Shown: positions 5,595-38,214 of the stretch, in pieces
Position numbering within the stretch: the stretch's first letter is position 1
How the letters are laid out: every line of letters starts with the position of its first letter
DNA from: Erysipelotrichaceae bacterium
GTDB taxonomy: Bacteria > Bacillota_I > Bacilli_A > Erysipelotrichales > Erysipelotrichaceae
Length of the DNA: 44,446 bases
Assembly: GCA_021209625.1 (NCBI GenBank)
Contig: JAJOHZ010000003.1
Span: forward strand, 1 to 44,446
Direction: 5' to 3'
Notes under the pieces: model-generated
What the model was told of the DNA's origin: nothing
The model's database searches: none
Seen by the model: the letters and a program-made list of their open reading frames with translations, nothing else
Program-made: the position numbers and the translations under genes

Positions 5595-5628
5595 TGATAA
5601 AGTGAATGAAATTAGGTATAATAAGACC
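5595..5628 (+). promoter_or_regulatory. Promoter giving a probable leaderless start for the alpha/beta hydrolase
   Basis: TATAAT lies at 5617-5622 and the ATG begins at 5629, so transcription should start at or next to the start codon. No ribosome binding site is present. The -35 element (TGATAA, 5595-5600) is weak. Confidence 0.6.
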
Positions 5629-6384
5629 ATGAATGAGATATTTACCTTTAAAAACCAAGACATTCACTATCGATATCATCAAAAGTCAGACACCACACTG
5701 GTGTTTTTGCACGGTTGGGGTCAATCCATGATCATGATGGAACCGATTGAAATGTCTTTTCAACCCCATTTTTCAACGTTAAACCTTGACTTTCCAGGAT
5801 TTGGACTAAGTGCTCCACTCAATGATGTGTGGAGTATTACTGACTATGCGGATGGGATTGAAGCACTGCTTAACCATTTAAATGTTCAAAACCCCGTGTT
5901 TGTGGCACACTCCTTTGGAGCAAGAGTTGCCCTCATCTTAGCCTCTCGTCTTCAACCAAAGCAAATGATATTAACAGGAGCAGCAGGTTTAAAACCAAGA
6001 TTGTCGCTAGGAACCCATCTTAAGATAAGAACTTATAAACTACTAAAGATTGGACTTCGTTTGCCTTTTGTTGGAAAACATTTACTTCCTTTAAAAACCT
6101 TCTTTGGAAGTGAAGATTATAAACAAACCACAGGGGCGTTAAGACAAACCTTTGTGAAGGTAGTGAATGAGGACTTATCTCCTTTACTAAAGCAGATCAC
6201 AACATCGACGTTGCTTATTTGGGGAGATAAGGATGATGCGACTCCACTTTGGATGGGAAAAACCATGGAGAAGCACATGAAGGACGCAGCCTTGATCATC
6301 TATGAAGACGATGATCATTATGCTTACTATCATCAATTAAAACGAACCATCAAAATCATTGAAGCATTTGTACAACAGAAATGA
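5629..6384 (+). CDS. Alpha/beta-fold hydrolase
   Basis: This 251-residue protein has the alpha/beta hydrolase pattern: an HGWG oxyanion-hole motif near residue 25, a nucleophile elbow AHSFGA with Ser near 98, Asp in WGDKDDATP near 201, and His in DDHYAYY near 230. The first Gly of the usual GxSxG elbow is Ala. It is a cytoplasmic hydrolase of unknown substrate, similar to many small esterase-like proteins. The ATG at 5629 is preferred over an upstream GTG because the -10 box would lie inside the longer reading frame. Its stop overlaps the beginning of the MurF reading frame. Confidence 0.85.
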   Translation: MNEIFTFKNQDIHYRYHQKSDTTLVFLHGWGQSMIMMEPIEMSFQPHFSTLNLDFPGFGLSAPLNDVWSITDYADGIEALLNHLNVQNPVFVAHSFGARVALILASRLQPKQMILTGAAGLKPRLSLGTHLKIRTYKLLKIGLRLPFVGKHLLPLKTFFGSEDYKQTTGALRQTFVKVVNEDLSPLLKQITTSTLLIWGDKDDATPLWMGKTMEKHMKDAALIIYEDDDHYAYYHQLKRTIKIIEAFVQQK

Positions 6385-6392
6385 GGGATATT

Positions 6393-7979
6393 ATGACATT
6401 AGAAACCATTCTATTGATTCTTGTGATGGCATTAGCATTATGGCCAAGAATGAAGCATGCTCTTCATATGTTTCAACAAAATCGTTATGAACACCCTCGC
6501 TATATTCCTTGGGTGCTTCAAAGTAAGACCACATGGTCCTTGTTCTTTTCTTCACTGCTCATGGGCGTGGTGATTATTTTAAGTGTCATCATTGAGATTC
6601 CTTATGTCAGTATCGGGTTATATCTTGGATTGTTTGCCTTGTATTGGGTCTTTAAATCAAAAACCAAGCATGTCAAGCCACTTGTCATCACTGCCCGTGT
6701 CACGCGTCAAATCGTTGTGTTTTATGTCTTGATTATTCTTGTCTTGGCATCCATTACACTGATTTCATTAGAAGCCTCGTTTAGAAATCTATTCCTTGGA
6801 TTAACCCTACTTGTGATGCATGTTTTAATTCATTTCATGATGATGATTGTAGGGTATTTGACCGCTCCTTTAGAAAAAATGGTTCATGCTCATTTCATGC
6901 GCATGACACGCAAAATCCTTAAACAACATTCCCGTCTCATTACCATTGGAATTACAGGGAGTTATGGTAAAACCACATCAAAGAACATCATGCATGAAGT
7001 ATTGAGTTCTTCATTTTACACCCTCATGACACCAGCTTCTTTCAATACCCCTATGGGCATCACCAAAACGGTAAGAGAATTACTCAAACCCATACATCAA
7101 GTGTTTGTGTGTGAAATGGGAGCAGACAAGGTGAATGAAATCCATGTGTTAATGAACATGGTTAAACCACAGTTTGGGATTGTGACCGAAGTCGGTCCAC
7201 AACATTTAGATACCTTTAAAACTCAAGACAATATACTCAAAGAAAAAATGAAGATGATTGAAGAACTTCCTTTAAGTGGGTGTGGCTTTATCAACTATGA
7301 CAATGAACTCATTCGCTCTTATCACATTAAGAGTAAAGTTCCCGTCGTAAAGGTTGGATTGGAACATCCAGAGTGTGATTATCGTGGTGAAAACATTGTG
7401 ATCACCAATCGTGGATGCCAGTTCGATGTGGTTACTAAGGATGGGTTACGTCAACCTTTAGAGACAAAGCTGCTTGGAAGACACAATGTCATGAATATTC
7501 TTTTTGCGGTTGCGGTTGCACGACACCTGCAAGTGGATTGGGATGATATTGCAAAGGCCATCAAACAACTTAAACCTGTCTCCCATCGTTTAGAACCAAA
7601 AGTCATGTTTGGGTTGAATGTGATTGACAATGCCTACAATTCTAATCCTCAAAGTGCGAAGCATTCGCTTGAAGTGCTTAAAATGATGCCAGGAATACGC
7701 TTTTTAATTACTCCTGGTATGGTTGAGTTAGGTGAGAAGACCGATCAATATAATGAGACCTTTGGCGCAAACATGATTAACCATGTGGATGAGGTCATTC
7801 TCATTGGAAAGAATCGATCACTTCCTATTCAAAAAGGCCTCATGAACAGTGGTTTTGATATGAACCATGTTCATGTGGTGAACTCCACTTCTGAAGCTTT
7901 TGAATTGATTAAGAAAAAGGCAACCCCTGCCGACAGTATCCTTATTGAAAATGATTTACCAGACGCATTCATTCATTAA
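6393..7979 (+). CDS. murF: MurF-type Mur ligase with N-terminal membrane domain
   Basis: The C-terminal part (about 180-528) is a Mur ligase: the ATP-binding loop GITGSYGKTTSK, a FNTPMG segment, an EMGADK segment, GRHNVMNILFA, SHRLEPK, and the DNAYNSNPQSA motif characteristic of MurF. MurF adds D-Ala-D-Ala to the UDP-MurNAc-tripeptide. The Ddl gene that makes D-Ala-D-Ala lies one gene downstream, supporting this role. Unusually, residues 1-170 contain about five membrane helices in place of the normal N-terminal UDP-MurNAc-binding domain. ATG 6393 follows GAGGG; an in-frame ATG at 6381 lacks a site. A distinct Mur ligase substrate cannot be excluded. Confidence 0.85.
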   Translation: MTLETILLILVMALALWPRMKHALHMFQQNRYEHPRYIPWVLQSKTTWSLFFSSLLMGVVIILSVIIEIPYVSIGLYLGLFALYWVFKSKTKHVKPLVITARVTRQIVVFYVLIILVLASITLISLEASFRNLFLGLTLLVMHVLIHFMMMIVGYLTAPLEKMVHAHFMRMTRKILKQHSRLITIGITGSYGKTTSKNIMHEVLSSSFYTLMTPASFNTPMGITKTVRELLKPIHQVFVCEMGADKVNEIHVLMNMVKPQFGIVTEVGPQHLDTFKTQDNILKEKMKMIEELPLSGCGFINYDNELIRSYHIKSKVPVVKVGLEHPECDYRGENIVITNRGCQFDVVTKDGLRQPLETKLLGRHNVMNILFAVAVARHLQVDWDDIAKAIKQLKPVSHRLEPKVMFGLNVIDNAYNSNPQSAKHSLEVLKMMPGIRFLITPGMVELGEKTDQYNETFGANMINHVDEVILIGKNRSLPIQKGLMNSGFDMNHVHVVNSTSEAFELIKKKATPADSILIENDLPDAFIH

Positions 7980-7992
7980 TGCGTCTTTTTTT
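7961..7992 (+). terminator. Intrinsic terminator overlapping the murF stop
   Basis: AGACGCATT (7961-7969) pairs with AATGCGTCT (7978-7986) and is followed by eight or more T. The 3' arm overlaps the stop codon. Confidence 0.8.
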
Positions 7993-8043
7993 TTAAGTGC
8001 AACATCTCATGGTTTGGAGTATAATGTGAAAGAGAGAAAAACC

Positions 8044-8646
8044 ATGACACTTGAACAATTCGTAATAAAAGTGCTAGGAATCGCAAAGATAGGAAAGAAA
8101 TTTTCTAAAGATCCTTATGCCTTAGAAAACTATGAAGAACTCCATGACTTAGGCCAACAGATGGCATCCACATTAATGCCACCTCAAGAAGCGTGTACAT
8201 TGTTTGAAAGAGATGTTTATCCAACGCCTAATCTTTCAGTGCGTGTATTAATTACCGATGAATTGAACCAAGTATTGTTTGTGAGAGAGAAACAAGATGG
8301 TTATTGGTCTGTGCCTGGAGGATGGGTTGATTTGTTTCAAAGTGTTGAACAAGCAGCAAAAGCAGAAGCTTTACAAGAAGCGGGCGTGATGATTAGGATT
8401 CATCGTGTCTTATCTTTGTTTCAACGAGAACGACATAAAGATTATCCTACCTTACTCTCAGAAACATGTGTTTACTTTCACGCAAGCATTGAATCAGGCG
8501 ATCCTCACCCAGGATTTGAAACATTAGAAACCCAATGGGTTAATATTGAAGAAGCTTTACCGCAGTTATCACGCAAAAACTCAAAAGAAGAACTAATGAT
8601 TGCTTGGTCATGTTTAAAACAAGGTGATCAAGTTTATTTTGAATAA
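8044..8646 (+). CDS. Nudix hydrolase with N-terminal helical domain (YjhB-like)
   Basis: This 200-residue protein has an N-terminal helical region (about 1-65) like the Nudix_N domain, then a Nudix fold. The Nudix box begins at PGGWVDLFQS and ends AEALQEAGV. Two consensus positions differ (Q for the first Glu and A for Arg), but the two glutamates that normally coordinate metal at the end are kept; similar departures occur in the YjhB group. Substrate is probably a nucleoside diphosphate derivative, not determinable here. A TATAAT at 8020-8025 gives it its own promoter after the murF terminator. The ATG at 8044 follows AGAGAGA. Confidence 0.85.
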   Translation: MTLEQFVIKVLGIAKIGKKFSKDPYALENYEELHDLGQQMASTLMPPQEACTLFERDVYPTPNLSVRVLITDELNQVLFVREKQDGYWSVPGGWVDLFQSVEQAAKAEALQEAGVMIRIHRVLSLFQRERHKDYPTLLSETCVYFHASIESGDPHPGFETLETQWVNIEEALPQLSRKNSKEELMIAWSCLKQGDQVYFE

Positions 8647-8658
8647 ATAGGAGAGTGT

Positions 8659-9825
8659 ATGAAACTAAATATTGGAGTTTTTTTTGGAGGTGCTTCAGTG
8701 GAGCACGATATCTCCATTCTATCAGCGATGCAAGCAATGGCTGCACTTAATCGTGAACGTTACGATGTATACCCACTTTATTTGAATAAAGCGGGGATTT
8801 TGGTGAGTGGAAATGCATTAAGTGATGTAAAGACATTTAAGTCTTCTTCCTTAGTGAACAAGAAATCCATTCCAATCACATTAGTAAAAGAAAATCAAAG
8901 TGTTGTTTTACGCTATTTAAAAGGATGGAAGAAACCTGTTCGATTGGATGTCATCTTACCTGTGGTGCATGGCACCAACAGTGAAGATGGTAGTGTTGCA
9001 GGTTATCTTAATGTGATTGGAGCTGTGTATGGTGGAAGTGATGTGATTGCTTCAGCCATTGGACAAGATAAAGTTATTTTCAAACACATTCTTGAAAACT
9101 CCAAACTTCCAATTGTGCCTTGGTTTTGGTTTTATGGTAAAGATGTTGTAGCGTCACAAGTGTCCATCTTAACTCAAGCTAAGCAAATCGGATATCCTTT
9201 AATCATTAAACCTTCAAACCTTGGAAGTTCAGTAGGCATTGAGTTGGTTAAGAATGAAGCCGATCTTTTTAGTGCAATTGAGCGTACAAGTCAATTTGAT
9301 GAAAAGATTGTCATTGAAAAAGCCATCACTCATTTAAGGGAAGTGAATTGTTCTGTATTAAATATCAAAGGCAAACACACCGCTTCAGTGCTTGAAGAAG
9401 TAAGCAAAAGTGATGAGATTCTTTCTTTTACCGATAAATATCAACGTGGTGGTAAAGGCAAACACAGTGGTCCAAGCAAGGGGATGGCCTCATTGGATCG
9501 TCTTATTCCAGCCCCCATTGACGATGCATTAACCAAACACATTCAAGACTTAGCCACCACCTGCGCTCGTTTACTCAATGTGGGTGGGGTCGTGCGTATT
9601 GACTTTTTAATTGATACTCAATCCAATCAGGTCTATTTAAATGAGATTAACACCATCCCTGGGTCGTTATCCTTTTACTTATGGAAAGAAAGTGGGATTG
9701 ATTTTGAGAGTTTGATGGACATCCTGATACAAGGTGCTATTGAGCGTGAACAACGAAAAGAACATTTAGTTCATACGTTTGAATCTTCTGTTTTAGAAGG
9801 ATTTAAAGGAAGTAAAAAAACATGA
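8659..9825 (+). CDS. ddl: D-alanine-D-alanine ligase
   Basis: This 388-residue ATP-grasp enzyme joins two D-Ala for peptidoglycan synthesis. Visible family features are GGASVEHDISI at the N-terminus, VLPVVHGTNSEDGS, the ATP-grasp segment PLIIKPSNLGSSVGI, and the C-terminal metal and substrate motif RIDFLID followed by NEINTIPGS. The start at 8659 follows AGGAGAG at a good distance, 12 bases after the Nudix stop. It is close to murF, whose product uses the dipeptide. At 388 residues it is at the long end of the family. Confidence 0.95.
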   Translation: MKLNIGVFFGGASVEHDISILSAMQAMAALNRERYDVYPLYLNKAGILVSGNALSDVKTFKSSSLVNKKSIPITLVKENQSVVLRYLKGWKKPVRLDVILPVVHGTNSEDGSVAGYLNVIGAVYGGSDVIASAIGQDKVIFKHILENSKLPIVPWFWFYGKDVVASQVSILTQAKQIGYPLIIKPSNLGSSVGIELVKNEADLFSAIERTSQFDEKIVIEKAITHLREVNCSVLNIKGKHTASVLEEVSKSDEILSFTDKYQRGGKGKHSGPSKGMASLDRLIPAPIDDALTKHIQDLATTCARLLNVGGVVRIDFLIDTQSNQVYLNEINTIPGSLSFYLWKESGIDFESLMDILIQGAIEREQRKEHLVHTFESSVLEGFKGSKKT

Positions 9826-9840
9826 TCAATTAGGAGGTGA

Positions 9841-11208
9841 ATGATGGATTTATTGAACCTAACACTCTCAGAGTTTCGATTTCTCATAGAGACAAAACGA
9901 GTTAAAGAGTTAAGAATCGTCTTTGAAGAATGGCATCCTGCGGATATCGCAGACATGTTGACGTACCTGAGTTTAGAAGAAATCTTATTCTTATTTAAGA
10001 CCATCAATAAAGAACAAACCTCCCAAGTGTTTTCCTATTGTACCATTGAAACTCAAGAACGATTGATTGAGGCTTTTTCTGGTCCACAGATTAAATCAAT
10101 CCTTGAACACGTTGAATTTGATGATGTCGTGGACTTTTTAGAAGAACTACCTGACAATCTAGTGAGAAAAGTGCTTCAAAATGCTTCTGAAAGTCAAAGA
10201 CAAGAAATCAACATCTTACTATCTTATCATCCGAATTCAGCAGGTGCGCTCATTACCACCAAATATGTTGAAATCAATGAAGATGATACTTTAAAGGATG
10301 CAATCAATAAAGTACGTTCTCAAGGTAAGGGTGCTGCAAGTATTCAAACCTGTTTTGTGGTGAATCAAAACGATAGACTCATTGGTACAGCGCGTTTAAA
10401 AGACATGATGACCAATCCTGAAGATGAACTGGTTTCTGAAATCATGGAAACAGATGTCATTAGTGTTAATACTAAAGATGATCGTGAAGAAGTGGTTAAA
10501 GTCTTCTCTAAATATGATTTATCAGTGGTTCCTGTGGTGAATGATCAATTCTGTTTAGTTGGTATCATTACGGTAGATGATGTCATTGACGTCATTGAAG
10601 AAGAAGCGACAGAGGACATTCAAAAGATGGCTGCGATTAATCCACTCGAAGGATCATACCTACAAACCAGTGTGATGGATATGTTTAAGTCGCGTATACC
10701 ATGGTTATTGGTGCTGATGATTTCTGCTACCCTTACAGGACTGGTGATGGAAGCGTATGCTCACATCACTGTGGCTTTAACCAGTTTAGTGATGTTTATC
10801 CCTATGTTGATGGATACAGCAGGCAATGCAGGTTCACAAGCTTCCGCAATGGTCATCCGTGGGATTGCGATTGATCATCTTGATATCAAAGATTTCTTTG
10901 TGGTGTTATGGAAAGAAATGAAAGCTTCCGTAATCACTGGTGTTATATTGTTTGTGGTCAATGTCCTTCGCATTGTGATTTTTTCTCCTTCATTGGGTTG
11001 GGGTATCGCCATACTTGTTTCCGTTGCCATCTTCTTTACCATTGTATTAGCCAATCTCATTGGAGGTTCTTTACCATTAGTGGCTTTATTGATTAAGGTT
11101 GACCCTGCCGCCATGGCGGGGCCTGTGATTACCACATTAGTGGATGTGGTTGCACTCATCATTTACTTCAATATGGCTGCCTTTTACTTAGGGAGGGTGC
11201 TCACATGA
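9841..11208 (+). CDS. mgtE: Magnesium transporter MgtE (first copy)
   Basis: This 455-residue protein has the MgtE layout: an N-terminal helical superhelix (about 1-130), two CBS domains (about 135-255) that sense cytoplasmic magnesium, a linking helix, and about five membrane helices (about 285-455) forming the pore. The signature DTAGNAGSQASAMVIRGIA is present, as is the pore segment KVDPAAMAGP. AGGAGGTGA directly precedes the start; an ATG three bases further (9844) is an equal alternative. Sixteen bases separate it from ddl. The second copy starts four bases before its stop, so the two are translationally coupled. Confidence 0.93.
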   Translation: MMDLLNLTLSEFRFLIETKRVKELRIVFEEWHPADIADMLTYLSLEEILFLFKTINKEQTSQVFSYCTIETQERLIEAFSGPQIKSILEHVEFDDVVDFLEELPDNLVRKVLQNASESQRQEINILLSYHPNSAGALITTKYVEINEDDTLKDAINKVRSQGKGAASIQTCFVVNQNDRLIGTARLKDMMTNPEDELVSEIMETDVISVNTKDDREEVVKVFSKYDLSVVPVVNDQFCLVGIITVDDVIDVIEEEATEDIQKMAAINPLEGSYLQTSVMDMFKSRIPWLLVLMISATLTGLVMEAYAHITVALTSLVMFIPMLMDTAGNAGSQASAMVIRGIAIDHLDIKDFFVVLWKEMKASVITGVILFVVNVLRIVIFSPSLGWGIAILVSVAIFFTIVLANLIGGSLPLVALLIKVDPAAMAGPVITTLVDVVALIIYFNMAAFYLGRVLT

Positions 11209-12562
11209 TTGATTTCAACCAATGTAATCCAGAACTGCTCTCACAACTCATTGAAGGAAGACAAGTCAAGAATCTAAGAGAACTCTTTGATGAAATGAAC
11301 ATTGTCGACTTAGCCGAAATTGTTGCGGAGTTAAGTGTTGAAGAGATTTTGTTTTTGTTTAAAACATTAAGAAAAGACATCAGCGCACAACTATTTACGT
11401 ATCTTCCTAATGAAGTGAAAGCAGCCATGATTTCATCCTTCACTTCAGGTCAAATCAAATCAATGATTGAAACCTTGTATACCGATGACTTGGTGGACTT
11501 CCTTCAAGATCTTCCTGCCAATGTGATTCGTCAAATATTAAAAGAAGCGGATCATGAACAACGTTCTGAGATTAATCTTTTATTAAGTTTTCCATCTTAT
11601 AGTGCAGGAAGCTTAATGTCTTTAGACTTTGTGGAACTCAAGGCCGAAGACAGTGTGAAACAAGCCATCGTAAAGATTAAGAGACAAGGTAAAGATGCTG
11701 AAACCATTCAAGTGTGTTTTGTGGTGGACGAGTTAAGAAACTTAGTGGGGTCAGTTTCCCTGAGAACAATCTTGTTTGAAGATGATGATGTTTTGATGAA
11801 AGACATCATGGACATTGATGTGATTTATGCAACTGTTTATGATGATCAAGAACGAGTTGCAAAACTGATGCAACGCTATGACTTAACGGTATGCCCAGTT
11901 GTGAATGATGAGTTAAGACTCATTGGGATAGTCACCATTGATGACATGCTTGACGTCTTAGAAGATGAAGTCACAGAAGATATTCAAAAGATGGCGGCGA
12001 TCATTCCTTTGGATGGGTCGTATCTAGAAAACTCATTACATGACATTGTCAAGTCTCGCATTGCGTGGTTGCTGGTGTTGATGGTGAGTGCAACCCTTAC
12101 AGGAAGCATCATTGGTGGCTTTGAGCAACAGATTGAACTTCTTCCTGCATTATCCTTTTTTATACCAATGATCATGTCAACCTCAGGTAATGCGGTTCTC
12201 AAGCTTCTGCCATGGTTATTCGTGGGATTGTGGTGGATCAGCTGGATACTAAAGATGTCTTTAAAGTCTTGAGTAAAGAACTCTTGGTGGCTTTACTGAG
12301 TGGATCCGTTATCTTTGCAGCGAACATGATTCGGGTATTAGTGTTCATGCCTTCATCTGATTTGTCAGTTCATTTTGTGGTTTCAATGACGTTGTTTCTC
12401 ATGATGATAATCTCAAAGATGGTAGGGGGGTTATTGCCTCTTCTTGCGAAGAAGTTTAACCAAGACCCTGCAGCCATGGCAGCGCCCCTCATCACCACCA
12501 TCGTGGATGCGTTAGCCATGCTCATCTACTTTTCATTAGCATTGCTTTGGTTAGGACTTTAA
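11205..12562 (+). CDS. mgtE: Magnesium transporter MgtE (second copy, interrupted by an apparent 1-base deletion)
   Basis: A paralogue of the preceding gene with the same N-domain, CBS pair and transmembrane region. The reading frame breaks in the pore signature: after SGNA the sequence GCGGTTCTCAAGC yields NAVLKLL, while adding one G to the GG at about 12190 restores NAGSQASAMVIRGI and continues to the stop at 12562. The corrected length of about 452 matches the first copy (455). A lost G in GGG is the simplest explanation. The start ATGA overlaps the stop of the first copy. Two tandem copies suggest heteromers or a recent duplication, although the proteins are already clearly divergent. Confidence 0.88.
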
Positions 12563-15765: not shown

Positions 15766-16640
15766 ATGAATATTCTTATCCAAAACAATATATCTCTTAA
15801 ACGATTTAACACATTACGCTTAGATTCCACATGTGATTATGCGATTACACCACTTAACATACAAGGCGTCATTGAAGCCATCCAACTGACACAAGACAAA
15901 CGTCGTGTGATTTTAGGCAATGGTTCCAATGTCCTTTTAACGCAAGAACATTATGATGATTCGACTGCATTTATTCTTATGCACCGTTTGGATGATCTTG
16001 ATATTCAAGACAATGAGATTGTGGTAGAAGCTGGAAGAACACTTCATGACTTAGCGTGGTTCACCATGGATAATGAAGTGGAAGGCTATGCTTTTTGTGA
16101 AGATATCCCAGGTACTGTAGGTGGAGCTTTACTCATGAATGCAGGTCAATGGGAATACACCATTTCCCAATATGTCAATTGGGTTGAAGTGGTGCATTGT
16201 GATGATGCACGTCTTGAGCGCATTTATCCACAAGAAGGTTTCTTTGGGTATCGTCATTCTGGATTTAACACCATGAATGCGATCATTGTTCGCTCAGGGT
16301 TATCCATTACCCATGGTAACTACAATGATATCTTTGAAAAATCATGTACTACAAACGTGAACGTTATATGAAACAACCTCGTAACTATCCTAATGCGGGA
16401 AGTGTGTTTAAACGCCCTTATAAGAATGGGGAATCCTTGTATGTGTGGAAACTCTTTGATGCGACATCACTTCGTGGTCATCAAATTGGAGGAGCACAAA
16501 TTTCAGAAAAACATCCAGGGTTTATTGTGAATGTGGACAATGCCACTTCCACGGATTGTGTCAACTTGATTAAAGAGGCCCAAAAACGGGTTAAAGAAGC
16601 ATTTGATGTTGATTTAGAACTTGAATGGAGAATCATCTAA
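15766..16640 (+). CDS. murB: UDP-N-acetylenolpyruvoylglucosamine reductase MurB (interrupted by an apparent 1-base deletion)
   Basis: MurB reduces UDP-GlcNAc-enolpyruvate to UDP-MurNAc with FAD and NADPH. The N-terminal piece has the FAD-binding LGNGSNVLL and DIPGTVGGALLMNAG motifs and FGYRHSGF; the second piece has KQPRNYPNAGSVFKRP and, near its end, the catalytic-Glu region SEKHPGFIVN. The frames differ: restoring one A in the AAAAA run at about 16337-16341 gives FEKIMYYKRERYMKQP and an uninterrupted product of about 291 residues, the normal length. An essential gene is unlikely to be dead, so consensus error is favoured. Start at 15766 follows GAAGGTAAAC. Confidence 0.92.
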
Positions 16641-16661
16641 CTGTCTTAGGACAGTTTTCTT
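16639..16661 (+). terminator. Intrinsic terminator after murB
   Basis: AACTGTC (16639-16645) pairs with GACAGTT (16650-16656) around a TTAG loop, then a T-rich tract. Confidence 0.82.
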
Positions 16662-16739
16662 TTGGGCACAACACAGCACCCTTAATCTAAGTTATGTTAG
16701 GATATGTTTAAGCAACTTAAGTAAGAATGGGTTGATGTT

Positions 16740-17234: not shown

Positions 17235-18635
17235 ATGAGAATGAATGATATTGGCGTCATCGGCATGGCCGTGATGGGTAAAAACTTAGCATTAAACTTT
17301 GCAGATCAAGGCTTTAAAGTGGCCATTTATAATCGTACAACGCAAGTGAGTCGTGATGTGGTGAATGAAAACCCACACCAAGATCTTTCGCTTCATGAAA
17401 CATTAGAAGGATTTGTGCATTCCCTCATTCAACCACGAAAGATCTTAATCATGGTACAAGCAGGCAGTGCGGTTGATAAAGTGATTGATCAACTGCTCCC
17501 ACTTCTAAGTGTTGGAGATATTGTGATGGATGGAGGTAACTCCTTTTATCTGGACACTCAAACCCGTTATGAAAGACTTAAACCTTTAGGATTTCATTTC
17601 TTAGGTGTGGGTGTTTCTGGTGGAGAAGAGGGAGCTCGTTTTGGTCCAGCCATCATGCCTTCAGGAGATAAAGAAGCGTATGACTTAGTACAACCTTACC
17701 TTGATAAGATCGCTGCGGTAGCCTATGGTGAAGCATGTGCATCTTATGTTGGTAAAGATGGTTCAGGTCATTTTGTCAAGATGGTGCATAATGGGATTGA
17801 ATATGGTGACATGCAACTGATTGCGGAAGCGTATACCATCCTCAAACAGGGATTTAATGCTTCTATCCCAACCATGCAATCCATTTTTAAAACATGGAAT
17901 GAAAAAGATTTATCATCCTACTTAATTGAAATCACAGCTCAAATCTTAAGTGTTAAAGATCAACATAGCGATCACTATTTAGTGGAAATGATTGAAGACG
18001 TTGCCCATCAAAAAGGCACAGGAAAATGGACAGCCAATGCATCCTTAGAATTCAATGTGGATGCTTCAGTGCTCACCTCAGCCGTGTTTGCACGTTTCAT
18101 GTCTGAAATCAAAGATAAACGACTCAGTGCATCACAACGTTTTCATAAACCTATAAGTAATGCATCCTTAAGTGATGAATGGGTAGCCAAACTTGAAAAT
18201 GCGTTGTATGTAGCGAAACTCATGAGTTATGCGCAAGGATTTGAATTGCTTACGCAAGCCAATGAACGCTATGAATGGAATTTGAACTTTGGTTCTATTG
18301 CGAAGGGATGGCGTGCAGGATGCATCATTCGTGCACAGTTCTTAAACAAAATTGCCCAAGCCTATGAGGTAAATTCTTCATTGGATCATTTACTTTTTGA
18401 TGAGTACTTTGCTTCTGTCGTGAACTCTCATATTCAAGATTTACGTGATGTGGTGGTGTTCGCCACTCAACATGCGTTAGCGATGCCAACCTTCATGAAT
18501 GCTTTAGCTTACTTTGATGGATTAACTACGCCAATGAGTGGAGCAAACCTAATTCAAGCTCAACGTGATTTCTTTGGTGCACATACATTTAAACGTTTGG
18601 ATCGTGAAGGAAGTTTCCATGATGAATGGAAATAA
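17235..18635 (+). CDS. gnd: 6-phosphogluconate dehydrogenase, decarboxylating
   Basis: This 466-residue enzyme converts 6-phosphogluconate to ribulose-5-phosphate, CO2 and NADPH. The NADP-binding fold begins GVIGMAVMGKNLALN; the substrate-binding GVSGGEEGARFGPAIMPSG and KMVHNGIEYGDMQ with catalytic Lys follow, and GTGKWT is present. Length is normal. ATG 17235 follows GCGAGGT. zwf begins inside its last codons, so the two oxidative pentose phosphate enzymes are translationally coupled. TACAAT at 17211 may be its -10 box. Confidence 0.96.
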   Translation: MRMNDIGVIGMAVMGKNLALNFADQGFKVAIYNRTTQVSRDVVNENPHQDLSLHETLEGFVHSLIQPRKILIMVQAGSAVDKVIDQLLPLLSVGDIVMDGGNSFYLDTQTRYERLKPLGFHFLGVGVSGGEEGARFGPAIMPSGDKEAYDLVQPYLDKIAAVAYGEACASYVGKDGSGHFVKMVHNGIEYGDMQLIAEAYTILKQGFNASIPTMQSIFKTWNEKDLSSYLIEITAQILSVKDQHSDHYLVEMIEDVAHQKGTGKWTANASLEFNVDASVLTSAVFARFMSEIKDKRLSASQRFHKPISNASLSDEWVAKLENALYVAKLMSYAQGFELLTQANERYEWNLNFGSIAKGWRAGCIIRAQFLNKIAQAYEVNSSLDHLLFDEYFASVVNSHIQDLRDVVVFATQHALAMPTFMNALAYFDGLTTPMSGANLIQAQRDFFGAHTFKRLDREGSFHDEWK

Positions 18636-20029
18636 AACGACGTTCTTTACATTGTTTGGGGCAACAGGGGATTTAACCTATCGTAAGTTAATCCCTGCGT
18701 TATACAATCTTCATTCACTTGATCATCTAGATCAAGGTTTTAAGATATTGGCCATTGGTCGTAGAGACTACACCACTCAAGACTACCATGACCTATTACG
18801 ACCTTGGTGTGAGAAGTTTGTACGCACCGGGTTTAATGAGCGTGTCTTTGATGCTTTTCTTTCTCGTATAGAGTATGTACAAATGCGCTTAGACGAACCA
18901 GAAGATTATGGGGTATTGAAAGCCATTTTATGAGACATGCCCACAATCTCAACATCTGTATTATCTTGCGGTGGCTTCGTCTTACTTTGATGTGATTGCG
19001 TCAAATTTAGTTCAAAGTGGATGCACTTCATTTGCTTCCACTAAGCAGTGTTTAATTGAAAAACCGTTTGGCACATCTTTTGATAGTGCTTTAGAACTGA
19101 ACAATACGTTGCTTCGTTTCTTTAAAGAAGAAGAAATCTATCGTATTGATCATTACTTAGGTAAGGAAATGATTCAAAACTTGTTAGCCATTCGCTTTGA
19201 AAACCCAATACTGACTCCACTATGGAATGACTCCATGATTGATTCGATTGTGGTTAGAGCGCTTGAAGAAGTGGGTGTGGAATCCAGAGGTCAATATTAT
19301 GATCATTTTGGAGCCATTAAAGATATGGTGCAAAATCATCTTTTTCAAATCGTGTCTTTACTATTGATGAAACCTTCCAATAACTTGGATGAGCGTATTG
19401 CACACCAAAACGAAATCATTGAGCATTTAGAACTCTATCATCAATCCAAAGAGGACATTGTTTTGGGCCAATATGAAGCCAACTCAACACTTAAGGAAAA
19501 GATGAAAGGGTATCGTGAAGAAGAACATGTGGATCCTCAATCCACAACGGAGACCTTTGTGTCACTTCGTACTCGAATCAATCTTCCTGAATACAAAAAC
19601 ATTAAAGTGATTCTTCAAACAGGGAAAAGAACGCATATGCGATCCACTGAGGTCATTGTGAACTTTAAAGGGCATGGACCTAGACCCAATCAACTGATCA
19701 TTAAGATTGCACCTGATGAAGGGGTTTACTTAAGAATGAACATCAAGAAACCTGGACAAAGTCATGATGTGGAAACCATCATGATGGAGTATTGTCAGTC
19801 TTGTGTGTATGAGAATCGCTTGAATACGCCTGAAGCCTATGAGCGCCTACTTAAAGCAGGCATTGGTTTAGATCGTGCTTTGTTTACACCTTGGGAGATG
19901 GTGGCCTCCAGTTGGAAAGTGGTGGATGAATGGCTTAGCTTTATTTCTAAAGAAGCGGTACCCCTTTATTTCTATCCAGCTCAAACGTATGGACCAACCC
20001 AAGTTTTGGAGCATTTTCATGAAGAATAA
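18619..20029 (+). CDS. zwf: Glucose-6-phosphate 1-dehydrogenase (interrupted by an apparent 1-base insertion)
   Basis: Zwf oxidises glucose-6-phosphate to 6-phosphogluconolactone with NADP. The N-terminal piece has the cofactor motif LFGATGDLTYRKL; the C-terminal piece has EKPFG and the active-site RIDHYLGKE. The frame breaks at about 18929: removing one T from the TTTT run gives KAIYETCPQSQHLYYLAVASS and a protein of about 469 residues, near the usual 480-490. ATG 18619 follows GAAGGAAG and overlaps gnd by 17 bases. No 6-phosphogluconolactonase gene is seen in this window. Confidence 0.92.
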
Positions 20030-27746: not shown

Positions 27747-28469
27747 ATGAAGGCTATTTTATTTGATTTAGATGGGACGTTGCTCCCGATTGATATGGAT
27801 GATTTTGAAACGATTTATTTCAAAGGACTATCCTCTCATTTCATGGATTGGATGGATCCGCAGGAGTTTGCTCAGAAGTTGTGGAAAGCAACAACTGCCA
27901 TGGTGATGTCCACGGATGATCGCACCAATGAAGAAGTGTTTTATGAGGCTTTTACTCCTTTAATTGGGGAACATCGCATCCGTGAAGCTACACAACGCTT
28001 TGAATTGTTTTATAAGGGTGGATTCTCTAAGCTAAAAGAAGCCATGAAACCCACTCACAGTTGGAAACACATTCTTACAGAACTTAAAGATAAAGGATAT
28101 GCTCTGGTGTGTGCCACAAACCCCTTGTTTCCACAAATCGCAACACAACAACGCTTATCATGGATTGGATTGGATTTGCATGACTTTGATTTAGTGACGA
28201 CGTTTGAAACCTCTCGATCATGTAAACCCCAACTTAAATACTATCAAGATATCTTTAATCACATCCAAGTCCAACCCCATGAAGCCATCATGATTGGTAA
28301 TGATACCCTTGAGGACACCATTGTGTCTCAGTTGGGGACTCAAACGTATTTGGTTGTAGATCATAAAAAAGAAAACTCAAGAGGGTCTATTCCTTCAACC
28401 TATGAAGGAAGTGCTCATGATTGCATGACTTTCTTACAACAACTACCCCCATTAGGAGAAACACAATGA
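27747..28469 (+). CDS. HAD-superfamily hydrolase
   Basis: This 240-residue protein has motif I LFDLDGTLLPID with nucleophile Asp near residue 8, a helical cap, motif II near ATNPLF, and motif III/IV in CKPQLKYY and MIGNDTLEDT. It is a HAD-family phosphatase of unknown substrate. ATG 27747 follows GTGAGGT. Its stop overlaps the pepF start (ATGA), so the two are coupled. Confidence 0.88.
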   Translation: MKAILFDLDGTLLPIDMDDFETIYFKGLSSHFMDWMDPQEFAQKLWKATTAMVMSTDDRTNEEVFYEAFTPLIGEHRIREATQRFELFYKGGFSKLKEAMKPTHSWKHILTELKDKGYALVCATNPLFPQIATQQRLSWIGLDLHDFDLVTTFETSRSCKPQLKYYQDIFNHIQVQPHEAIMIGNDTLEDTIVSQLGTQTYLVVDHKKENSRGSIPSTYEGSAHDCMTFLQQLPPLGETQ

Positions 28470-30228
28470 ACACCTGGGATTTAACGGATTTATATCCAAG
28501 TTTAGATGATGCATCGTTTATTAATGACTTTGAAGTGGTTAAAACAGAGATTAATACCTTTGAACAATGGTCCAATACTTTAGATTCATTGACTGATTTA
28601 GAGGTGTGTGAAAGCTATATTCAGCAATCCATTAAACTATCCACTTTAATCTCTCGCTTAGGCGCATTTGCATCCTTAACTTCCGCAACCGATGCTTCCA
28701 ACAGTAGTGCTCTTAATGCGCTTAATCAAATTCAACTTCTTTCAACAAAGACAGTGACAGGTCAAGTGGCATTTATTCATCGCTTAAAAACCATAGATAA
28801 TTTAATGGCTTTAATTGATTCGTCAGAACTCTTAAAAGAACATGCGTTTGTGTTAGAGACCATGAAGCAACAAGCTAATCATGTTTTATCGGCTCAGGAA
28901 GAACTCATTATCTCTAAAATGAGCATTAATGGTTCCACGGCTTGGAGTAATCTACAAAACAAGATTACGTCAACACTCAGTGTGGAAGTGAACTTACCTG
29001 AAGGGGTTAAAACTTTACCTCTTCCAGCAGTACGTAATTTAGCTTACAGCAGTGATGCACAGGTACGTAAAGCAGGTTATGATGCGGAAATGAAAGCATA
29101 TGCACGCATTGAAGACAGTTCAGCTGCGGCTTTAATGGTATTAAAGGGGAAGTGCTTACTTTAAATGAACTTAAAGGCTATGAAGGTGTCCTATCTGAAA
29201 CACTCATTAAATCTAGAATGAGTGAGAAAACACTTGAAGCAATGCTAAAGGCCATTGAAAAGACACTACCGGAGTTTAGACGATATCTAAAACATAAGGC
29301 AAAACTATTGGGCCATGAGTCTTCCTTACCTTTCTATGATATGTTTGCACCAATCAACACCAATACCTTAACGTATACCTATAACGAAGCAAGTGATTTT
29401 GTTGTGAAGCAGTTTAGAACTTTCTCCGATGAATTGGCTGATTTTACCACCCACGCAATTAGACACAACTGGATTGATGTTGAGCCACGCAGTGGCAAAC
29501 GTGGGGGAGCGTTCTGCTCAAATCTTCATCCAATCAAGCAAAGTCGAGTACTTCTTAACTTTGATGGTTCTTTCTCAAACTTAACCACCTTAGCTCATGA
29601 ACTTGGGCATGCTTATCATGGTCATTGTCTAAAGGATGAAACCATTCTAAACGCTCGTTATCCAATGCCTATTGCGGAAACAGCATCCATCTTCTGTGAA
29701 ACCATCGTGGTGAATGCAGCATTAAAAGAAGCTGACAAAGAGAATGCGATTGCGATACTTGAAGCCAGTATTTCTGATGCGACACAAGTCATTGTGGATA
29801 TTTACTCACGTTACTTGTTTGAAACATCCTTATTTAAGGCCAGAGAAAAACAAGTGCTTGATTCCAAACAATTACAAGAACTAATGCTTAAAGCTCAAAG
29901 GGAAGCTTATGGTGATGGCCTTGATCAAACTCAACTTCATCCATACATGTGGTTGAATAAACCTCATTATTATTCTGCAGGACTTAATTTCTATAACTTT
30001 CCTTATGCGTTTGGGTTATTGTTTTCCAAGGGTTTATATGCTCAATATTTGAAAGAAGGAGAATCCTTTGTTCCTAAGTACAATGAGTTACTTAAAGCAA
30101 CTGGAAAACACAACATTAAAGATGTGGCAGCAATGGCACAAGTGGACAGTGAAGATGTTTCCTTCTATGAAGCATCACTGCAACTGGTTGTTGAAGACAT
30201 CCAAAAATTCATTGAATTAACCTCTTAG
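28466..30228 (+). CDS. pepF: Oligoendopeptidase F, M3 family (interrupted by an apparent 1-base deletion)
   Basis: A cytoplasmic zinc metallopeptidase that cleaves short peptides. The N-terminal piece has the usual start MNTWDLTDLYPSLDD; the C-terminal piece has the active site LAHELGHAYHG (HExxH) and a downstream Glu in PIAETASIF. Restoring one A at about 29134 (TTTAAATGG) turns LMVLKGKCLL into LNGIKGEVLTLNELKGYE and gives about 587 residues, the family length. AGGAGAAAC precedes ATG 28466, which overlaps the HAD gene by four bases. Confidence 0.93.
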
Positions 30229-36139: not shown

Positions 36140-38214
36140 ATGAGAGACTATCAATCATTTGAAGTAAGAAATGTGGTCACCTTAGGCCATTCAGGATCTG
36201 GTAAAACAACGTTAGTTGAAAGTATGCTTCTGCATACCAAAGCGATTGATCGCATTGGTAAAGCCGTGGATGGAAACTCAGTCTTAGATTATGATGCGGA
36301 AGAAGTTAAGCGTGGGGTCTCTGTCTTTACATCACTTGCCCCTATTGAAGTAAGAAACACTAAAATCAACATGTTGGATACTCCAGGGTATTTGGACTAC
36401 GTTGGAGAAGCAACTGCAGGATTAGCTGTTGCGGATAACGCATTAATTGTGGTTAGTGCGAAAGATGGTGTTCAAAGTGGAACACTGAATGGATATAAGA
36501 AAGCGAAAGAAAGAAAACTTCCAACCATCTTTTTTGTCAGTAAACTGGATGAAGATAATACGTCCTTTGATACAACCTATAATCAACTACGTGAAGCGTT
36601 TGGTAAAGCCGTCATCGCTTTTGAACTTCCTATCATGGAAGAGGGGCACATTGTTGGATCGATTAATGTATTAAAGAATAAAGCATGGTTCATCAATGAT
36701 CGTGAGAATGCTAAACCGGTTCCTGAAGCGTATGTGTCTAGAGTCAACGAGCTCAAAGAACAAATTTCTGAAGCTGTTGCGATGGCTGATGATGCTTTGA
36801 TGGAAAAATTCTTTGAAGGGGAAACTTTCAGTGATGCGGAAATCTTAAAGGGTATTCGTCTTGGAGTACGAAGTGGAGAAATCTTGCCTGTGTATTCAGG
36901 GTCTGCAGTGAAAGTGATTGGTGTTGAAAGACTGCTTGAGCTCATTGTGGATTACTTCCCTACGTATGCTGAAAAGGAGTGGTTGAAGCCAAGGATGAAA
37001 AAGGCAATCTTGTTCAACTTCAAACCTCAGAAAGTGAAACCTTCAGTGCTAAAGTGTTTAAAACCATCATTGACCCATTTGTTGGAAGAATTTCCTTCAT
37101 TAAAGTCATGAGTGGAGTATTAACCACTGATTCAACCGTTCATAACACACAAAAAGACAAAGCAGAAAAAGTCAACCAATTGTTCCTCATTAAAGGGAAG
37201 AACCAAATTGGGGTAGGAAAATTGTTTGCAGGGGACATTGGAGCGATTGTTAAACTTCAAAACACAGAGACCAATGATACCTTATGTGCCAAAACTAGAA
37301 TTGTCAGCTTTGAGCCAATTGAATTTGTCCAACCGATGCTTGGAGTTGCTTTATGGCCAAAAACCAAACTAGATGAAGACAAGCTATCCACATCACTTCA
37401 AAGACTCCTTGAAGAAGATCCAACCTTGCGCATGGAAAAGAATGCAGAAACACATGAGCTCGTACTTTATGGTGTGGGTGATCAACACATTGATGTTATT
37501 ATCTCAAAGCTTAAAGCGAAGTATAAAGTTGAAGTTGATCTTACTGAGCCTAAAGTGCCTTATCGTGAAACCATTCTTGGTACCGTTACTGCAGAAGGAA
37601 AACACAAGAAACAATCAGGTGGAGCAGGACAATTTGGGCATGTCTTCATCACATTTGAACCAAGTGAATCCTCAGAAATGGTCTTTGAAGAAAAAGTCTT
37701 TGGTGGAGCAGTACCAAAACAGTACTTCCCAGCAGTTGAAGCGGGACTAAGAGAAGCCATGGTCCGTGGTGTCTTAGCAGGCTACAAGGTTGTCGGTGTA
37801 AAAGCGACACTCATTGATGGAAAATACCATGAAGTTGATTCTAAGGAAATTGCCTTCAAACAAGCAGCTAAGTTAGCGTATCGCTCAGGTATGCCACAAG
37901 CCAAGCCTGTACTTCTTGAACCAATCGTAAAAGTGGCGGTGACAGTGCCTGAAGAATATACTGGAACAGTGATTGGTGATTTAAACAAACGTCGTGGGAT
38001 TATTCTTGGTATGGAGATGATTTCGGATAATGAACAACTCGTTAGTGCGGAAGTTCCTATGACTGAAATGATGCGCTATCCAACTGAACTACGTAGTTTC
38101 ACTCAAGGACGAGGCAGTTTCGTACAAGAATTTGATCGTTACGAAGTAGCACCTCCACCGATTGCTCAAAAGGTCATTGAATCAGCTGTTAAACAAGCAG
38201 AAGAAGACGAATAA
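36140..38214 (+). CDS. EF-G-like translation factor paralogue (interrupted by an apparent 1-base deletion)
   Basis: A ribosome-associated GTPase related to EF-G. The G domain has GHSGSGKTT (G1), KRGVSVFTS (switch), DTPG (G3) and SKLD in place of NKxD (G4). The C-terminal part has EF-G domains IV and V, with QSGGAGQFGHV and GVVEAKDEKGNL at the repaired junction. Adding one A to the AAAA run at 36972-36975 gives YAEKGVVEAKD and about 691 residues, the EF-G length. KRG rather than ERGITI places it in the EF-G2/FusA2-like group of unclear function rather than the essential factor. It lies in an operon with the ankyrin gene. Confidence 0.88.

Follow-up and report, generated by a model that had tools for sequence, protein, structure and literature searches.

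The locus investigated here raises the question of how a MurF-type ligase whose N-terminus consists of membrane helices recognizes its substrate, and whether it serves as the MurF of its host. MurF is an essential enzyme that is treated as soluble in textbooks, and inhibitor work has been built on soluble structures. The DNA analyzed, referred to hereafter as the window, is a stretch of 44,446 nucleotides on contig JAJOHZ010000003.1 of an Erysipelotrichaceae bacterium (assembly GCA_021209625.1). Judging from the sequences compared in this study, the ligase is rather likely to represent the D-Ala-D-Ala-adding MurF of the host, integrated into the membrane next to MraY, and to recognize its substrate by a rebuilt site on the membrane side. 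The ligase itself is real, conserved, and functionally important.

Domain Architecture of the Membrane-Type Ligase

The ligase gene is located at positions 6393 to 7979 on the forward strand and encodes a protein of 528 aa, as deduced from the open reading frame (ORF) list, Pfam and NCBIfam matches, an AlphaFold2 model, and structure matches obtained with Foldseek and VIA. Its reading frame is intact, being open from the ATG at 6393 to the stop codon at 7979; an alternative in-frame ATG at 6381 would yield 532 aa and a 4-base overlap with the stop codon of the upstream gene. The ATP-binding and C-terminal Mur domains, which the preliminary description had called clear, were both recovered by Pfam (Mur_ligase_M, residues 187–376, 3.4e-41; Mur_ligase_C, residues 398–518, 2.8e-10). 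Ahead of residue 187, no credible family match was obtained in Pfam or NCBIfam, and the canonical UDP-binding domain was not found. The NCBIfam model for murF (TIGR01143) reached 223.8 of the 288.6 bits required by its cut-off, the alignment covering profile positions 68–403 of 418. For the full-length protein, the AlphaFold2 model reached a pLDDT of 93.8 and a pTM of 0.90 and placed the first Mur strand at residue 183. The top matches among solved structures were MurF structures in both Foldseek and VIA, with a VIA Z of 40.7 (4.5 Å over 376 residues) for Thermotoga maritima MurF (3zl8).

In place of the N-terminal domain that holds UDP-MurNAc, residues 1–178 (positions 6393 to 6926, forward strand) constitute a membrane domain with five predicted transmembrane helices, as derived from the AlphaFold2 model, hydropathy, and the distribution of lysine and arginine. 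Hydropathy analysis yielded five windows (residues 2–20, 49–67, 69–87, 107–125, and 135–153), whereas the model contains helices at residues 3–15 and 17–29 (3–29, broken at 16), 34–43, 47–67, 70–89, 101–124, 128–144, and 146–177. The earlier proposal of about five membrane helices within roughly 170 residues, replacing the UDP-MurNAc-binding domain, thus agrees with both approaches, and the helices were modelled confidently in the full-length protein as well as in the membrane domain alone (pLDDT 90.8, pTM 0.84). Lysine and arginine residues together number three in segment 30–46, three in segment 90–100, six in segment 157–182, and zero in the two short outer loops. Based on the positive-inside rule, the N-terminus is predicted to lie outside and the three lysine- and arginine-rich segments in the cytoplasm, which would place the conserved motifs on the same side as the ligase domains.

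Within an alignment of 84 sequences, residues Q28, Y32, T100, R102, R105, and E161 of the membrane part were invariant, and the conserved motifs read QQNxYxxR(Y/F)xxW, KPLVxTxRVxR, and PxE. The dN/dS values of the membrane part were 0.07, 0.10, and 0.14 for three of four within-genus pairs, dS being saturated in the fourth; for the ligase part, values of 0.02 and 0.05 were obtained for two of the four pairs and none for the other two. Comparisons of the membrane domain with known folds and families returned little: Pfam gave no match for the domain of the window, a Foldseek search of the PDB yielded nothing at E ≤ 0.001 (the best match had 1.1), and the best VIA comparison with 80 chains reached a Z of 5.2 (4.2 Å over 82 residues). 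These structure comparisons point neither to a novel fold nor to an established one. UbiA was matched by 4 of 59 membrane domains (best 1.6e-4), and the other weak Pfam matches were scattered; they were not read as signs of relationship.

Residues of the Ligase Core

To characterize the catalytic part, 81 membrane-type sequences were compared with 25 canonical MurF sequences. The ATP-binding domain features the P-loop TGSYGKTT at residues 188–195 (positions 6954 to 6977, forward strand), and residues G189, S190, G192, K193, T194, E241, H271, K285, N368, R399, D412, and N418 are common to the window ligase and the 25 canonical enzymes. Domain 3 is different. The alignment places TPG at residues 440–442 (positions 7710 to 7718, forward strand), where canonical MurF has L-x-D; TPG occurs in 81/81 membrane-type sequences, and the canonical D at 442 in 25/25. 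At position 454, asparagine was found in 78 of the 81 membrane-type sequences and histidine in all 25 canonical ones. The family-specific C-terminal motif ENDLPD (residues 519–524; positions 7947 to 7964, forward strand) corresponds to K-(G/A)-S in canonical MurF, with E519 in 79/81 and N520 and D521 in 81/81 membrane-type sequences compared to K in 25/25 canonical ones. In summary, the ligase possesses the ATP/Mg residues and the central domain fold of canonical MurF and lacks both K-(G/A)-S and L-x-D.

In Mur ligases, the UDP-MurNAc end is held by domain 1, and the region of domain 3 that carries these motifs receives the incoming amino acid or dipeptide. The loss of the UDP-binding domain, together with TPG and ENDLPD in domain 3, therefore suggests that recognition was rebuilt at both substrate ends. 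Since the dipeptide-side motifs differ strongly from the canonical ones, the acceptor could differ as well.

Relatives and Phylogeny

Relatives were collected as the best 80 of 570 confirmed matches in a scan of named genomes, a selection that favors close relatives. All 80 are proteins of 492–559 aa with two to five hydropathy helices before the P-loop. They include Erysipelotrichaceae (Holdemania and Amedibacillus dolichus), Bacilli (Geomicrobium, Pseudalkalibacillus, Aquibacillus, Sinobaca, and Gracilibacillus), Clostridia (Sporosalibacterium and many metagenome-assembled genomes (MAGs)), and two Synergistaceae MAGs; a few MAGs among the 80 loci bear the titles of other groups, as judged by title only. 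No member of the Campylobacterota was present among these best 80 of 570 relatives. Four out of five congeners of the window's organism share the architecture at 77–97% identity over the full length, and the fifth (G001) carries the ligase in two contig-end pieces with 60% and 47% identity.

The phylogenetic tree comprised 44 rows: 28 membrane-type sequences (of 81), 13 canonical ones (of 25), and three very long-branched outgroups. One branch (93/94) set the membrane-type rows apart, and another (100/99) the canonical rows. In five further genomes assigned to family f14 (G220, G302, G327, G345, and G351), MurF-like ORFs of 482–501 aa were observed that align with the murF profile from position 64 or 65 onward; they gave no match to the membrane-domain profile at 1e-5 and are perhaps a still more divergent membrane type.

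Replacement of the Canonical murF Gene

A second, normal murF had been proposed as an item to search for. None was found in the window's own genome, in which MurE, MurC, FolC, and a MurT-like ORF accompany the membrane ligase (names from sequence reading). Since this genome is only 60% complete, the absence proves little by itself; complete relatives, too, mostly lack a normal murF above the cut-off.

The two types excluded each other in the phylum of genome G365 (Pseudalkalibacillus), for which 249 genomes with a requested completeness of at least 95% were analyzed, murF being counted as canonical above the TIGR01143 cut-off. Canonical murF was present in 230 genomes, the membrane type in 15, both in 0, and neither in 4 (hypergeometric p = 9e-21, relatedness ignored). 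At a looser limit, the 14 membrane-type genomes of this phylum other than G365 again contained no canonical murF above the cut-off (0/14) and encoded one MurF-like ORF each, 522–566 aa in length. In the Geomicrobium, Pseudalkalibacillus, Aquibacillus, Sinobaca, and Gracilibacillus genomes, the membrane type is the sole MurF and the module ddl, described below, the sole Ddl.

Among 344 genomes of the window's own phylum, 60 carried the membrane type and 29 carried canonical murF, including 6 with both; the 261 genomes with neither presumably belong in many cases to wall-less lineages. Canonical murF above the cut-off was thus missing in 54 of the 60 membrane-type genomes. Five of these 54 (G120, G179, G238, G253, and G342) carry an extra MurF-like protein of 457–481 aa that aligns with profile positions 35/37–406 below the cut-off, and in G346 a fragment at the end of a contig aligns with murF positions 163–418. 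Within the window's own family (25 genomes), 17 genomes have the membrane type, 9 the canonical one, 2 both, and 1 neither; the sister family has canonical murF only (16/16 genomes). For 18 genomes reached via the loci, a further partial murF match was found in G377 (profile positions 1–206, 181 bits) and a MurF of 917 aa, 1.2 bits under the cut-off, in G379, while G372 was without a murF match at 1e-40. Judged by gene content, the membrane type stands in for canonical MurF in most genomes that possess it.

The gene for the subsequent enzyme, mraY, was present in 13 out of 15 membrane-type genomes checked. At the match limit of 1e-20, it was missed in the 60%-complete genome of the window and in G011, a single 3.9 Mb contig from the same family with a membrane-type MurF, which may use a strongly diverged MraY or form lipid I with a different enzyme. 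In four Bacilli genomes having the membrane type only, MraY scored 387–410 bits; in G364, it is split over two frames. Two other members of the window's family (G021 and G287; 2.3 Mb, 98–99% complete) yielded neither a murF nor an mraY match at the limits used; possibly, they lack a wall although their family is walled, or a problem of genetic code or binning is involved.

Genomic Context: A Three-Gene Module

The ligase gene is part of a module with the order alpha/beta hydrolase, membrane-type murF, and ddl. The first gene (positions 5602 to 6384, forward strand, probable ATG near 5629) was identified by NCBIfam, its best match being the EstV family lipase model (1.1e-41; 143 bits, below the cut-off of 300); EstV is the HP0739 protein of Helicobacter pylori. 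A hydrolase gene is located directly upstream of the ligase in 74 of the 80 loci (best 80 of 570); when only the 75 loci whose flanks exceed 600 bp are counted, the figure is 71. Residues H95, S96, G98, S162, D164, G200, D203, and H231 are invariant in 75 aligned hydrolases. Because the catalytic residues S96, D203, and H231 are kept in all 75, the hydrolase is probably an active esterase-type enzyme; its role might, as a guess, be the housekeeping of D-Ala esters or dipeptides.

The ddl gene had been described as being two genes away from the ligase, and it is indeed found downstream at positions 8659 to 9825 (forward strand), separated by a single NUDIX-type ORF (positions 7945 to 8646, forward strand, probable ATG near 8044), the latter assigned on weak NUDIX-family matches. 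An ORF at this place occurs in the window's genus and a few others. A NUDIX-type gene directly 3' of the ligase was observed in loci L066, L068, L075, and L095, the contig of L066 stopping before ddl. In 65 of the 80 loci (best 80 of 570), and in 64 of the 75 whose flanks exceed 600 bp, ddl follows the ligase directly; it lies slightly further downstream in L068, L070, L075, L076, and L095, as in the window. In all five genomes with both types that were searched for ddl (G019, G024, G363, G368, and G378), either murF lies next to a ddl of its own, and in genome G000 the module ddl was the only ddl found.

The module Ddl, identified by NCBIfam and 388 aa long in the window, is of the long form (median 397 aa). 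Across 71 aligned Ddl sequences, E15 is present in 71, S190 in 70, K260 in 68, Y261 in 69, R313 in 68, and N331 in 68. It scored 281.8 bits with NF002528 (cut-off 262) and also passed the cut-off of TIGR01205, whereas the models for Van-type ligases remained far below theirs (VanG 188.4/495, D_ala_D_lac 158.1/550, D_ala_D_ser 153/520; likewise VanA, VanC, and VanI). An identity as Van-type ligase was rejected on these grounds. Erysipelothrix and C. innocuum are vancomycin-resistant; a link of the module to D-Ala-D-Ser or vancomycin is not supported by the ddl models.

Two neighboring genes for mgtE-type magnesium transporters follow directly 3' of ddl (positions 9841 to 12562). Elsewhere in the window, the murB gene (positions 15766 to 16371) encodes only 201 aa, and a MurB-like C-terminus continues in another frame at about 16371 to 16700, reflecting either an assembly frameshift or a broken gene. 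Four additional genes are split over frames (the second mgtE, 11205 to 12562; a G6PD-like gene, 18600 to 20029; a PepF-like gene, 28421 to 30228; and an EF-G-like gene, 36140 to 38214), which points to frameshift errors in the metagenome assembly.

Proposed Function and Alternative Explanations

A walled bacterium with MurE and MraY needs a MurF, and in most carriers the membrane type is the only candidate; we infer its D-Ala-D-Ala-adding role from this situation. The preliminary description had offered two possibilities for the substrate, namely recognition reorganized at the membrane or action on a lipid-linked or different precursor. Given the lost domain and the conserved membrane module in its place, recognition must have been reorganized. 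Because the membrane type is the sole MurF of most carriers, it is unlikely to serve a side pathway with a different precursor. The membrane domain would keep the ligase close to the inner surface of the membrane; the cytoplasmic side of this domain, which is conserved and positively charged, may have become the part that recognizes UDP-MurNAc-tripeptide at its diphosphate/MurNAc end. D-Ala-D-Ala would be supplied by the adjoining Ddl and bound via the altered domain-3 motifs TPG and ENDLPD, and the product would be formed next to MraY. An argument for a UDP-linked substrate is that MraY of the four membrane-type-only Bacilli genomes looks ordinary. Several observations speak against the MurF reading: the score below the murF cut-off, the strongly altered dipeptide-side motifs, the 6 of 60 genomes with both types, the five others with an extra MurF-like protein, and G011 with its membrane type but no mraY match at 1e-20.

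The same MraY scores weigh against a different order of steps, which appears unlikely yet worth considering: MraY would load the tripeptide precursor on undecaprenyl phosphate, and the membrane ligase would then add D-Ala-D-Ala to lipid I or lipid II, its arginine/threonine face binding the lipid pyrophosphate. However, MraY may need no change for this order, and the complete loss of the UDP-binding domain, the conserved membrane domain with invariant T100, R102, R105, and E161 instead, and the absence of the canonical dipeptide motifs would all fit. MurT, a Mur ligase without a UDP-binding domain, works on lipid II, an analogy that favors a lipid-linked substrate. That later wall steps accept tripeptide is suggested by MurF-starved Staphylococcus aureus, as excerpts of the respective study give a tripeptide content of 19.9% in the wall of an uninduced conditional MurF mutant (PMC9603463). 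If the dipeptide were added on the lipid carrier in such a large set of Bacillota, the textbook pathway would be reordered. It is more doubtful that the membrane domain is an anchor only, positioning MurF in the elongation machinery, as has been proposed for H. pylori MurF with Csd5 and CcmA, without a part in substrate binding, while the two remaining domains suffice for recognition. H. pylori MurF, which is an inner-membrane protein co-purifying with Csd5, CcmA, and Csd7 according to passages of the corresponding papers (PMC9448923, PMC9507126, PMC7012605), lends this idea some plausibility, but simple anchoring would not require six residues that never vary between Erysipelotrichaceae and Synergistaceae, the conserved residues are situated in segments predicted to be cytoplasmic, and nothing would have replaced the lost UDP-binding domain.

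Reading the ligase as a paralogue with another job (a different dipeptide or amino acid, resistance, or polymer synthesis, comparable to van clusters with murF) is very improbable. The exchanged domain-3 motifs, the module's own long Ddl and hydrolase, and the genomes harboring both types would be in line with it, and it may apply to these two-type genomes. As a general explanation, it is largely refuted by the membrane type being the only MurF in most carriers; moreover, the module Ddl passes NF002528 and TIGR01205 far from the Van-ligase cut-offs, and the membrane type was not found on the plasmids or viruses searched. Two scans of viral contigs gave no relative of the membrane ligase; among plasmids, 79 records matched, each over less than 80% of the query, and all 30 matches listed start at residue 147 or later. 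With no viral relative and no near-full-length plasmid match, a mobile element or resistance cassette was dismissed as the source. That the protein arose by frameshift-mediated fusion in the metagenome assembly is practically negligible, despite the frameshifted appearance of several other window genes: the same architecture recurs in 80/80 loci (best 80 of 570), isolates included, and in four of the five congeners. These relatives rule out a chance fusion, and together with the six invariant residues of the membrane part they also dispose of the earlier caveat that a separate gene had been joined by an indel.

Significance and Comparison with Known Systems

The three-gene module with EstV-like hydrolase and long ddl, the dipeptide-side motif changes, and a published remark on H. 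pylori MurF extend the preliminary description. Four points are new in this study, namely the breadth in Bacillota, the way in which the membrane type takes over from canonical murF, the three-gene module, and the altered motifs; the architecture has a precedent in H. pylori MurF. Searches of an open-access library, outside of which most subscription papers lie, returned none of these four points, and they gave no paper on membrane MurF by phrase, on a Campylobacter transmembrane MurF with Ddl, or on precursor pools. Many gut and salt-loving bacteria would depend on a membrane MurF that no longer carries the UDP-binding domain or the dipeptide motifs of canonical MurF, and inhibitors directed at the UDP site may fail on it. 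With the membrane-type MurF, one may ask whether wall precursors are completed at the membrane, and the order of UDP- and lipid-linked steps becomes directly testable.

Canonical MurF (TIGR01143; 4cvk, 4qf5, 3zl8, and 1gg4) and the window ligase have the central ATP-binding and C-terminal folds, the P-loop, and the Mg/ATP residues in common, and a common role is suggested by the replacement pattern. They differ in that canonical MurF possesses the N-terminal UDP-binding domain, whereas the window ligase features five membrane helices, TPG, N454, ENDLPD, and a sub-cut-off score. MurT, which is not known to have membrane helices, resembles the ligase in structure (VIA match 9sqj, Z 28.7, 3.4 Å over 334), but the MurT model gave only 38.9 bits for the window ligase compared to a cut-off of 800, and the MurT-like ORF of the window's genome, followed by a GatD-like ORF, is separate from it. 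In the vanI cluster of Desulfitobacterium, murF adjoins a D-Ala-D-X ligase (PMC4229326). This cluster has a Van ligase, while the window module has a Ddl, and the passages available from that paper describe no membrane-type murF and mention no membrane helices, for which reason it was not accepted as a precedent.

Further counterparts come from Campylobacterota. H. pylori MurF (HP0740) is described in passages of PMC9448923, citing Blair et al. 2018, as an inner membrane protein with four N-terminal transmembrane domains, and it complexes with Csd5 and CcmA according to parts of PMC9507126 and PMC7012605. N-terminal transmembrane domains preceding the Mur core are likewise present in the window ligase, with five predicted helices versus the four reported, the two proteins being compared by description. 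In Campylobacter jejuni, the genes for Ddl (Cj0798c), a hydrolase (Cj0796c), and MurF (Cj0795c) adjoin, and deletion of Cj0796c failed, so that this gene is possibly essential, as stated in sections of PMC5530802. The window ligase likewise adjoins an alpha/beta hydrolase and ddl, and, as compared by description, the Campylobacterota module is probably the same as the one found here in Bacillota.
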